DNA of 64,000 nt from Arthrobacter sp. efr-133-TYG-118. Lineage in GTDB: Bacteria; Actinomycetota; Actinomycetes; Actinomycetales; Micrococcaceae. This document shows, one piece after another, positions 38,203 through 48,990 of this stretch. The notes beneath the pieces were generated by a model. That model did not search any database. It was not told the DNA's origin and was given only the letters and a program-made list of their open reading frames with translations. The position numbers and the translations under genes were made by a program. The stretch lies in NCBI RefSeq assembly GCF_030209755.1, contig NZ_JARVRH010000019.1, positions 1 to 64,000 on the forward strand. The letters run 5' to 3'. Position 1 is the stretch's first letter; each line of letters starts with the position of its first letter.

Positions 38203-38219
38203 ATTGCGCATTACGCAAC
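38203..38219 (-). promoter_or_regulatory. 17-bp operator O1 (reductase side)
   Basis: On the minus strand GTTGCGTAATGCGCAAT, a near-perfect dyad (GTTGC-n7-GCAAT). It is downstream of the minus-strand promoter. A weaker related copy, GTTTCGCATAATG, lies directly before it (38226-38238). Matches the sites at 38324 and 48974. Confidence 0.6.
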
Positions 38220-38238
38220 CAACTTCATTATGCGAAAC

Positions 38239-38267
38239 AGCGTGGCGGACTTCACATCGCGTGTCAA
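38239..38267 (-). promoter_or_regulatory. Minus-strand promoter for the reductase-oxygenase operon
   Basis: TTGACA (38267-38262) with a 17-nt spacer to CACGCT (38244-38239). The weak -10 ends in CTG, like the two other promoters carrying the GTTGCG operator. Confidence 0.45.
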
Positions 38268-38293
38268 GGAATCACCGAAGTAATTTCAACCCC

Positions 38294-38323
38294 TTGACAA
38301 GTGCCTGTGAGATCCATCACTCT
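38294..38323 (+). promoter_or_regulatory. Plus-strand promoter for the ferredoxin-dmg-bet-pro operon
   Basis: TTGACA at 38294-38299 and, 18 nt on, CACTCT (38318-38323). The -10 is weak, so an activator or the adjacent operator may matter. Confidence 0.45.
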
Positions 38324-38340
38324 GTTGCGTATTGCGATCG
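38324..38340 (+). promoter_or_regulatory. 17-bp operator O2 (ferredoxin side)
   Basis: GTTGCGTATTGCGATCG begins right after the -10. The first 12 bases follow the same pattern as O1 and the MFS-creatinase site; the right half is degenerate. Confidence 0.5.
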
Positions 38341-38403
38341 GCGTTGATCATGAAACAACCGCCCAGCAGGTTTTTGACCCACCCGGTGAAAGAGGTTCTT
38401 GAG

Positions 38404-38754
38404 ATGCACAGTGCTTGCCCGCTCAGCTCGTTGGCTCCGGGGGAGGCCATTCGACTCGAGACGTCCCCGCCCATTGCCGTATTTCACACCGAAGAAGGCG
38501 AGCTCTTCGCCCTCGACGACACCTGCACGCACCAAGACGCCTCCCTCGCCGACGGCTGGGTGGAGGACTGCTGGGTGGAGTGCCCCCTCCATGCTTCCAA
38601 GTTCAATCTCCGCACGGGAGCCGCCGATGCGCCTCCCGCGAAACTGCCTGTCAGGGTCCACGAAGTGCTGGTGGTGGACGGCCAGATCATGGTCAAGGAA
38701 TCCGAAGAGGCTCCCAACCTGCCGCCAGGGTTGACCATCGACGGCCACGTCTAG
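38404..38754 (+). CDS. Rieske-type ferredoxin of the betaine oxygenase
   Basis: A 116-residue Rieske 2Fe-2S ferredoxin: Cys41-x-His43 (CTHQD) and Cys60-x2-His63 (CPLH). Start ATG 38404 follows AAAGAGG; the in-frame TTG at 38332 lies in the operator region. It is the electron carrier expected between the FAD reductase and the Rieske oxygenase but is encoded on the opposite strand, as first gene of the dimethylglycine oxidase-choline operon, sharing the divergent control region. Confidence 0.9.
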   Translation: MHSACPLSSLAPGEAIRLETSPPIAVFHTEEGELFALDDTCTHQDASLADGWVEDCWVECPLHASKFNLRTGAADAPPAKLPVRVHEVLVVDGQIMVKESEEAPNLPPGLTIDGHV

Positions 38755-38799
38755 CGTCGGCCCCAAACTTCCACACGACATAATCCAGGAGCAACACGC

Positions 38800-47732: not shown

Positions 47733-48707
47733 ATGCGTAGAACCAGACAGCTTTTGAAACGAACAATTCCCGTACTTGCCGGAACCGCTGCTGCAGCCCT
47801 CTTGCTAGCCGGCTGCGGAGGCGCTTCCGTGAACCAAGCCGCAGCCGCAGGCTCCTCGGATACGCCCTGCGGAACCGTCAATGTCGCCCTCAACGCGTGG
47901 GTCGGCTACACGGCAAACGCGGCCGTCTACAGCTATGTAGCCCAAAACAAGCTCGGTTGCACGGTAGTCCAGAAGGACCTGTCGGAGCAGATCTCCTGGC
48001 AGGGCTTTGGTTCCGGTGAAGTCGATGTCATCCTCGAGAACTGGGGTCATGCGGACCTCACGAAGCAGTACATCACGGACCAGAAAGTGGCTGTAGACGC
48101 CGGCCCGACGGGCAACGAAGGGCACATCGGCTGGTACGTGCCACCATGGATGGTCCAGAAGTACCCGGACATCCTGGACAGCAAGAACCTGAACAAGTAC
48201 GCCTCACTCTTTGCTACCTCCGAATCAGGCGGCAAAGGCCAGGTCCTGGACGGCGACCCCGCCTTCGTGACCAACGACGAAGCCTTGGTCAAGAACCTCG
48301 GCCTCGACTACAAAGTGGTCTTCTCGGGCTCGGAAGCGGCTCTGATCCAGTCGTTCCGTACGGCCGAAAAGAACAAGACACCGCTGCTGGGCTACTTCTA
48401 CGAACCGCAATGGTTCCTCTCCGAGGTCCCCCTCAAGAAGGTCAGCCTGCCCGCCTACACGCCGGGCTGCGATGCCGATGCCGAAAAGGTGGCCTGCGAC
48501 TACCCCGATTACAAGCTGAACAAAGTGATGGCCAAGAAGTTCGCGGACAGCGGTTCTCCCGCAGCGAAACTGCTCAAGGCCTTCTCGTGGACCAACGCTG
48601 ACCAGAACTCGGTCGCAACGGACATCCAAGGCGGCATGAAGCCAGACGCCGCCGCAAAGAAATGGGTGGATGCCCACCCCGATGTAGTGGCCGCCTGGCT
48701 CAAATAG
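47733..48707 (+). CDS. proX: Glycine betaine/choline-binding lipoprotein
   Basis: A 324-residue OpuAC-type substrate-binding protein with a lipobox LLAGC (Cys28). The mature part starts VNVALNAWVGYTANAAV and has GEVDVILENWGH and several aromatic residues (WVGY, WYVPPWM) expected for the cage that binds a trimethylammonium group. It is the last gene of the operon, ended by a strong terminator. Confidence 0.94.
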   Translation: MRRTRQLLKRTIPVLAGTAAAALLLAGCGGASVNQAAAAGSSDTPCGTVNVALNAWVGYTANAAVYSYVAQNKLGCTVVQKDLSEQISWQGFGSGEVDVILENWGHADLTKQYITDQKVAVDAGPTGNEGHIGWYVPPWMVQKYPDILDSKNLNKYASLFATSESGGKGQVLDGDPAFVTNDEALVKNLGLDYKVVFSGSEAALIQSFRTAEKNKTPLLGYFYEPQWFLSEVPLKKVSLPAYTPGCDADAEKVACDYPDYKLNKVMAKKFADSGSPAAKLLKAFSWTNADQNSVATDIQGGMKPDAAAKKWVDAHPDVVAAWLK

Positions 48708-48727
48708 TCCCTGAACCCCTCTCCCCT

Positions 48728-48767
48728 GAAGCTCCCCGGATCCATGGATCCGGGGAGCTTCTTTTTT
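48728..48767 (+). terminator. Intrinsic terminator of the pro operon
   Basis: A perfect 34-bp palindrome (48728-48761, arms GAAGCTCCCCGGATCC with ATG-centred loop) followed by TTTTTT, 20 nt after the proX stop. Confidence 0.93.
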
Positions 48768-48859
48768 GCTTTCTGGACGGAATGTTACTCATCTTCCGCA
48801 ACCGTGTTGCAGTGATTGCGCCACCCAACCCAACTAGCTCACACCCATCCTCCCAGCTG

Positions 48860-48909
48860 GCTCGCATTCGTTGTCGTTTAGCGCCCTCAAAACGACAACA
48901 AGTGCGAGT
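48860..48909. repeat. Imperfect 20-bp inverted repeat
   Basis: GCTCGCATTCGTTGTCGTTT pairs with the complement of 48890-48909 at 17 of 20 positions, around a GCGCCCTC-containing loop. It has no T-tract and looks like a REP-type palindrome rather than a terminator. Confidence 0.7.
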
Positions 48910-48933
48910 CAGTCGCGCGGCAACCAAACACCC

Positions 48934-48962
48934 TTGACGGTGACGGGGAACACATCTATTCT
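48934..48962 (+). promoter_or_regulatory. Promoter of the MFS-creatinase operon
   Basis: TTGACG, 17-nt spacer, TATTCT: the best sigma-70-like promoter of the three that carry the shared operator. Confidence 0.6.
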
Positions 48963-48973
48963 GATGCAACAGC

Positions 48974-48990
48974 GTTGCGTTGAATGCAAC
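48974..48990 (+). promoter_or_regulatory. 17-bp operator O3 at the MFS-creatinase promoter
   Basis: GTTGCGTTGAATGCAAC: perfect 5-bp arms (GTTGC/GCAAC) with a 7-nt centre, just downstream of the likely transcription start. An extra GCAAC precedes it (48966). Same class as O1 and O2. Confidence 0.6.

Follow-up and report, generated by a model that had tools for sequence, protein, structure and literature searches.

Two putative IclR regulons with a common half-site at the betaine and creatine promoters of an Arthrobacter catabolic island

Introduction

A stretch of 64,000 nucleotides from Arthrobacter sp. efr-133-TYG-118 (contig NZ_JARVRH010000019.1, positions 1 to 64,000; hereafter the window) contains a betaine/choline and creatine island, as judged by domain and family profile matches and by similarity to Protein Data Bank (PDB) entries. 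Two divergent betaine promoters and one creatine promoter, the latter preceding the genes for a major facilitator superfamily (MFS) transporter and creatinase, share this island with two genes for IclR-family regulators, here termed IclR1 (linked to the betaine oxygenase genes) and IclR2 (linked to creatinase). Betaine and creatine use both pass through sarcosine. The question raised by this locus is whether the two systems are governed jointly, as proposed in a preliminary description that saw one 17-bp operator at all three promoters and a single switch, or by two regulators that act separately.

We found putative IclR-type operators of two different layouts at these promoters. The best explanation is that there are two separate IclR regulons with the common half-site GTTGC/GCAAC, each IclR protein probably recognizing its own operator layout; on the basis of sequence comparison we assign this reading a probability of nearly 0.8. 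The operators, their conservation, their layouts and the IclR gene that accompanies each of them were established by computation. The involvement of both island IclR genes at the betaine and creatine promoters was backed by comparison across genomes. The idea of one operator and a single switch did not survive it: the layouts are separate, and each type is kept where the other IclR is absent.

Occurrence of the creatine operator

At the creatine promoter, three half-sites of alternating direction (GCAAC-N3-GTTGC-N7-GCAAC, at 48966-48990) form an arrangement like that of PcaU and cover the predicted start site of the MFS-creatinase operon (promoters were read by eye, side by side). This 25-bp three-box sequence occurred exactly once in the 5.28-Mb genome of the strain. 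Exact copies were found in 72 of 101 genomes of the same genus and in 87 of 197 genomes of the family, representing 18 of 32 genera, and reversed-pattern controls gave no match in either set. Nearly all same-genus places (84 of 86) were within 3 kb of a creatinase match when coordinates were compared by hand; L241, L246 and L260 were examined as sequence and the rest were judged by coordinates. One exception, in genome G004, was directly upstream of an IclR2 gene approximately 46 kb away from creatinase, and the other was in G071. Flanks were fetched for 40 of 92 creatinase matches, and the dyad stood upstream of the MFS or creatinase gene in 38 of these 40 same-genus loci. The other two (L165 and L166) had neither IclR2 nor the dyad, and their removal left the set of 38 creatine promoters used below.

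The family search added 27 newly fetched loci, five of them from the same genus, and the MFS or creatinase gene was directly downstream of the three-box in 19. Among the other eight, a more distant IclR2-like protein was encoded nearby in L310, L311 and L319, a more distant MFS protein was encoded on the opposite side in L321, and L326 had a relative of the gene at 29944-31281; no window gene was nearby in L312, L314 and L323. A case from another genus was L309, where the MFS and creatinase genes are divergent and each has one three-box. Besides, other genera showed a three-box of a second type, whose core is AGTTGCT and whose last GCAAC is preceded by TA. It adjoins IclR2-like proteins of 37-42% identity in L310 and L311, and perhaps it belongs to a third IclR regulon.

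A less exact copy of the three-box lies farther upstream at the creatine promoter (Table 1). With a threshold of at least 12 of 15 letters, a second three-box was present upstream in 36 of the 38 creatine promoters versus 0.6% of Markov-resampled sequences, and its distance from the proximal one was 122-147 bp in 33 of the 36 and 167, 167 and 203 bp in the others. The distal copy alone was not significant in the genome of the strain, where 22 places had two or fewer mismatches, and the support for 48798-48822 is therefore comparative. A strict helical phase of the distal operator was looked for across the promoters and was not found. IclR2 would most likely bind the three-box at 48966-48990 and also the distal copy, perhaps as a tetramer that loops to the latter, and would keep the MFS-creatinase operon repressed until creatine or one of its breakdown products appears.

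At 48857-48912, in the stretch that separates the distal operator from the proximal one, there is a long inverted repeat (z -3.9, folded as single-stranded DNA). Repeats like it, with changed letters, were seen by eye in L146, L148 and L149, and it may be a site for another regulator.

Organization of the betaine promoters

Each of the divergent betaine promoters has two head-to-tail dyads that begin right after the -10 and are 19 bp apart in the window, within the 18-22 nt between centres that characterize tandem IclR sites, and relatives showed the same layout. In 23 of the 30 loci, TTGC-N7-GCAA precedes the reductase gene, 32-65 bp ahead of the start. What sets the sites apart is conservation of this kind, here and in the exact creatine three-box. 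Flanks were fetched for 20 of 31 reductase matches, and an IclR1 homolog was present in all 20 fetched loci. The betaine promoter set comprised 48 of 60 possible promoters (30 loci, two sides) after removal of two off-target rows (TGTTTTGTC); the 12 promoters outside the search expression were the reductase side of L014, L015, L016 and L029 and both sides of L018, L024, L032 and L033.

A tandem-block profile took its training promoters from the same loci as L036-L055, in which it matches by construction, and the test was made on 20 IclR1-homolog loci outside training (L186-L205). The module was detected in 16 of these 20 loci, compared with 3 matches in 770 kb of base-shuffled sequence. One extra match fell within a coding gene in L199, and likewise in L054. 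Within the genus, a narrow tandem pattern was present in 40 of the 101 genomes and its control in none. A slightly shorter one matched 23 of the 197 family genomes, which represent 9 of the 32 genera, and its control matched once. IclR1 would most likely bind the tandem dyads after each -10 (38203-38238 and 38324-38359) and repress both betaine promoters until betaine or a product is present. Repression is suggested for both systems because the operators lie over or just after the start site.

The genome of the strain also has a paralogous oxygenase cluster (G000:C48:196055-204000; L052, L333) with an IclR1 paralog (67%), a GbcA-like protein (87%), a reductase (64%) and an ABC transporter; three tandem modules, all matches to the shorter pattern, are located in it. 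Betaine-type modules were additionally seen 3' of IclR1 homologs in L189, L190, L195, L196, L198, L200 and L203, for which no reductase match was listed, and L295, which is the same place as L198, contains a short reductase remnant. Autoregulation of IclR1 was considered and found no support: modules near IclR1 homologs (L195-L203) are beyond the 3' end of the gene and not divergent from it.

Co-occurrence of operators and regulators

The distribution of operators and regulators was compared in the 101 same-genus genomes by Fisher test, with strong matches taken as orthologs, such that G032 (31% match) was counted as lacking IclR1 and G049 (47% match) as lacking IclR2. Of the 85 genomes that have an IclR2 ortholog, 72 contained the creatine three-box, and none of the 16 others did (p 4e-11). 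The three-box showed no clear association with IclR1, as it occurred in 61 of the 81 genomes that have IclR1 and in 11 of the 20 that lack it (p 0.10). Conversely, the betaine tandem was present in 40 of the 81 genomes that have IclR1 and in none of the 20 others (p 1e-5), and its occurrence was similar with and without IclR2 (35 of 85 and 5 of 16, p 0.58). When IclR2 was present and IclR1 absent, the three-box was found in 11 of 11 genomes; when IclR1 was present and IclR2 absent, the three-box was found in 0 of 7 and the tandem in 5 of 7, and the remaining two, G080 (L017) and G005 (L204), had the tandem in looser form. Four creatinase loci without a neighbouring IclR2 gene (in G018, G085 and G049, and the third copy of G047) had no operator. 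As judged by coordinates and not counted singly, IclR2 is downstream of creatinase in most same-genus genomes.

These data give no support to a single switch: each of the two operator types is retained in genomes that lack the other IclR. If one IclR protein bound all three sites and switched betaine and creatine use jointly, the common GTTGC half-site, the nearly identical recognition helices and the location of both regulators within one island would be accounted for. This is nevertheless very improbable, as each operator type is kept without the other IclR and is not found without its own, and the layouts do not overlap.

Motif counts and the three sites as first reported

Three 17-bp motifs (38203-38219, 38324-38340 and 48974-48990) had been reported as minus-strand copies of one GTTGC-n7-GCAAC plan. 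Their positions were correct; only 38203-38219 is on the minus strand, and the other two are on the plus strand. The plan is exact at 48974-48990, has one mismatch at 38203-38219 (which ends GCAAT) and fails at 38324-38340, where the right half is GATCG and the left half-site alone fits. Likewise, the IclR operator type GTT-N11-AAC occurs at 48974-48990 only, with 38203-38219 reading GTT-N11-AAT and 38324-38340 not conforming. All three motifs do lie just downstream of promoters with TTGAC(A/G). A weak -10 had been noted for each; by eye this applies to the betaine promoters (CACGCT and CACTCT) and not to the creatine promoter, which has TATTCT with a 17-bp spacer. Overlooked at that stage were a second dyad in each of the betaine promoters, the distal copy of the creatine operator together with the first box of the proximal one, and GTG-N8-CAC in all three spacers.

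The 17-bp dyad was found at chance level in the window, with 1, 3 and 36 places at 0, up to 1 and up to 2 mismatches versus means of 0.15, 3.15 and 36.9 in 20 shuffles, and 62 places at up to 3 mismatches versus 70.9 expected. A scan of the genome gave GTTGC-N7-GCAAY fewer places (18 forward, 17 reverse) than the reversed control (31 and 31). A large genome-wide regulon was also rejected: the 17-mer was not enriched in the genome of the strain, and the strict form TTGCG-N5-CGCAA had 5 places versus 10 for the reversed control. With the 17-mer at chance by counts, the functional case must rest on comparison across genomes. Taken by itself, the lack of enrichment in window and genome would fit chance resemblances, a reading whose probability is negligible given that conservation and control counts across genomes contradict it.

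Recognition helices and operator geometry

Both proteins belong to the IclR family (PF09339 and PF01614 above gathering scores). BhcR, the best NCBIfam match of both, was rejected as their identity, with 182 bits for 33052-34008 and 118.4 for 51600-52679 against a cut-off of 350. The recognition helix reads HKSTASRLL in IclR1 and HKSTVSRIL in IclR2, and among aligned homologs HKS[ST]-x-SR was kept in 40 of 41 IclR1 and 37 of 37 IclR2 sequences. These nearly identical helices would explain the shared GTTGC/GCAAC half-site. TtgV, an IclR-family member, is listed as contacting DNA through Ser48, Thr49, Gln51 and Arg52 (PMC8222616), and motif alignment suggests that both window proteins carry S, T, S and R at the corresponding positions. 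Their N-terminal arms are different (VQSVDRA versus ASVxxNA).

The two operator types were separated by layout. The three-box score was 14-15 of 15 in the 38 creatine promoters and 9-12 in the 48 betaine promoters, although the creatine set was picked for having the dyad, which makes up 10 of the 15 letters. The tandem score was at most 12.6 in creatine and at least 22.1 in betaine promoters, the latter being the training set. These features bear on a further alternative, in which each IclR has its own main operators and, through the shared half-site, binds those of the other weakly, so that betaine and creatine use are loosely coupled. The alike TtgV-type contact residues inferred by motif alignment would allow it; the consistently different layouts and flanking bases and the differing N-terminal arms argue against it, and we consider such partial cross-talk unlikely. 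Also doubtful is a fuller version of the two-regulon model in which IclR1 and IclR2 would tell operators apart by geometry alone, IclR2 would loop three-boxes 120-200 bp apart, and a CRP-type site would be built into both systems.

Several observations weigh against two separate regulons with the proposed mechanism. Cross-binding may occur because of the near-identical recognition helices, and the variable spacing of the creatine three-boxes, without strict helical phase, weakens the idea of looping. No tandem module was detected in 4 of 20 IclR1-homolog loci even with a looser profile (L188, L192, L194 and L197), nor at the 5' end of any iclR1 gene in 40 loci, which leaves autoregulation unsupported. 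The narrow tandem pattern was missing from 41 of 81 IclR1 genomes and the exact three-box from 13 of 85 IclR2 genomes; three of the latter were inspected and scored 14 of 15, with ACAAC as the first box. In addition, the co-occurrence counts and p-values ignore relatedness.

An additional element between -35 and -10

The spacers of all three window promoters contain GTG-N8-CAC. This element was present in 37 of 38 creatine promoters versus a shuffle mean of 0.31, and the next commonest spacing, N10, was seen in 5. A first count in betaine promoters, 45 of 48, was partly selected, as the search expression required a -10 starting with CAC or CAA (or T for C), and a recount on modules found without regard to the element was therefore preferred. 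The element then appeared in 38 of 42 modules from reductase loci, in 17 of 26 from the other loci with an IclR1 homolog and in 34 of 47 from loci with the shorter tandem pattern. Shuffle means were 0.25-0.4 across these three sets, which overlap in part. Within the genome of the strain, TTGAC-N(1-8)-GTG-N8-CAC had 27 places versus 13 for the reversed control, and 6 of the 27 belong to promoters treated here, the three in the window and three in the paralogous cluster. Its distance from the -35 differs between creatine and betaine promoters, and the tandem is kept without it in some loci, for example in the ferredoxin modules of another genus (L372-L375 and L377), which indicates that GTG-N8-CAC is a separate element.

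Control common to both systems, if it exists, would more likely operate through this element than through the IclR sites, possibly by a CRP/cAMP-type regulator. At a position between -35 and -10, such a regulator would usually act as a repressor and not as an activator. The consensus of GlxR sites in Corynebacterium glutamicum, given as TGTGANNTANNTCACA (PMC4254451), resembles the element and has the same GTG-N8-CAC core; the window sites fit it in the outer part only, and the full consensus is absent from all three promoters. It could further be proposed that a CRP/cAMP-type regulator provides the common control and that the IclR sites only add substrate specificity. The frequency of the element in creatine and betaine promoters, its places in the genome of the strain and its resemblance to the GlxR consensus favour this possibility, which we hold as doubtful: besides the incomplete consensus and the expected repression, the element was absent from 9 of 26 and 13 of 47 modules outside reductase loci.

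Relation to known systems

The main text of a survey of IclR operators describes 17-bp GTT-11-AAC dyads (Suvorova and Gelfand 2021, PMC8222616), as well as tandem sites with 18-22 nt between centres in 94 groups and three-box sites of alternating boxes in 32 groups. The window dyad fits group 1 of this survey and the inner pair CAAC-N3-GTTG fits the geometry of group 2; the half-site core is GTTGC/GCAAC in the window and GTTYC/GRAAC in the survey. Because tandem and three-box IclR sites have already been described there, the window systems appear as ordinary regulons, two additions to a known kind. PcaU of Acinetobacter baylyi, as cited in the same survey, uses a three-box operator whose third box is needed and which, like the creatine site, has three half-sites of alternating direction. 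It serves protocatechuate genes with a TTTGTTCGAT-like motif, whereas the window boxes are over the predicted start site, which suggests repression. According to PMC8864220, creatine genes of C. glutamicum are under AmtR, a TetR-type nitrogen regulator. An MFS transporter likewise adjoins the creatine/creatinine enzymes in that system, and an IclR regulator is predicted instead in the window. Betaine and sarcosine are absent from the main text of the survey, and these sites may be in its supplementary tables. Among the literature matches listed, some of them judged by title and the supplementary tables of the survey not being covered, there was no publication on an IclR regulator of creatinase or betaine monooxygenase.

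This comparison predicts, across the genus and the family, the regulator of creatine use and that of betaine use in these actinobacteria. Exact operators can be named, and there are natural genomes that lack one or the other regulator. The pair is in addition a small test case supplied by nature for the way in which sister regulators are kept distinct when their recognition helices are almost the same, and GTG-N8-CAC represents a third element that could link the two pathways.

Gene content of the window

Features of the island are listed in Table 1. PDB relatives of the Rieske protein are Rieske oxygenases, one of which is named a demethylase. Its match to the GbcA (glycine betaine monooxygenase) family NF058607 was 220.8 bits over residues 13-224, below the cut-off of 670, and betaine is suggested as its substrate by the neighbouring genes for choline dehydrogenase, betaine-aldehyde dehydrogenase and a dimethylglycine-dehydrogenase-like protein.

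Table 1. Promoters, predicted operators and genes of the betaine and creatine island.
Feature	Position	Strand	Evidence or remarks
IclR1, IclR-family regulator linked to betaine oxygenase genes	33151-34008	+	HTH_IclR and IclR_C (on 33052-34008); homolog in reductase loci
Metallo-beta-lactamase-fold hydrolase, downstream of dehydrogenase gene	34021-34647	-	Lactamase_B
S-(hydroxymethyl)mycothiol dehydrogenase, formaldehyde disposal	34644-35732	-	TIGR03451, 664.5 bits (cut-off 512.9)
Rieske oxygenase, GbcA-like (putative betaine demethylation)	35794-36930	-	Rieske and ring-hydroxylase domains
Ferredoxin reductase, first gene of minus-strand betaine operon	36975-38171	-	Profile matches
Betaine operator, reductase promoter, dyad 2, GTTGCGTAATGCGCAAT	38203-38219	-	TTGC-N7-GCAA kept in relatives
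Betaine operator, reductase promoter, dyad 1, GTTTCGCATAATGAAGT, 19 bp from dyad 2	38222-38238	-	Tandem block; window score 29.6
Reductase promoter: -35 TTGACA (38267-38262), 17-bp spacer, -10 CACGCT (38244-38239)	38239-38267	-	By eye
GTG-N8-CAC (CRP-like) dyad, reductase promoter spacer	38242-38255	.
Ferredoxin promoter: -35 TTGACA (38294-38299), 18-bp spacer, -10 CACTCT (38318-38323)	38294-38323	+	By eye
GTG-N8-CAC (CRP-like) dyad, ferredoxin promoter spacer	38307-38320	.
Betaine operator, ferredoxin promoter, dyad 1, GTTGCGTATTGCGATCG	38324-38340	+	Tandem block; exact tandem pattern 38323-38346
Betaine operator, ferredoxin promoter, dyad 2, GTTGATCATGAAACAAC, 19 bp from dyad 1	38343-38359	+	Tandem block
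Plus-strand betaine genes, whole block	38404-48707	+	Profile matches
Ferredoxin	38404-38754	+
Dimethylglycine-dehydrogenase-like protein	38800-41307	+
Choline dehydrogenase	41364-43112	+
Betaine-aldehyde dehydrogenase	43109-44629	+	TIGR01804, 597.6 bits (below cut-off 668.6)
Choline/betaine-type ABC transporter	to 48707	+
Distal three-box creatine operator, GCAACCGTGTTGCAGTGATTGCGCC, 13/15 letters, 168 bp upstream of proximal	48798-48822	+	Distal copies in relatives
Creatine promoter: -35 TTGACG (48934-48939), 17-bp spacer, -10 TATTCT (48957-48962)	48934-48962	+	By eye
GTG-N8-CAC (CRP-like) dyad, creatine promoter spacer	48940-48953	.
Proximal three-box creatine operator, GCAAC-AGC-GTTGC-GTTGAAT-GCAAC	48966-48990	+	Conservation across genomes
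MFS transporter, first gene of creatine operon	49012-50418	+	Pfam MFS_1
Creatinase	50432-51706	+	566 bits to PDB 1chm, creatine amidinohydrolase, residues 27-422; family membership supported
IclR2, IclR-family regulator linked to creatinase	51819-52679	+	HTH_IclR and IclR_C

Finally, repeated GGACATGCCCA / TGGGCATGTCC stretches were seen by eye on both sides of the IclR2 gene, at 51720-51830 and 52680-53030.

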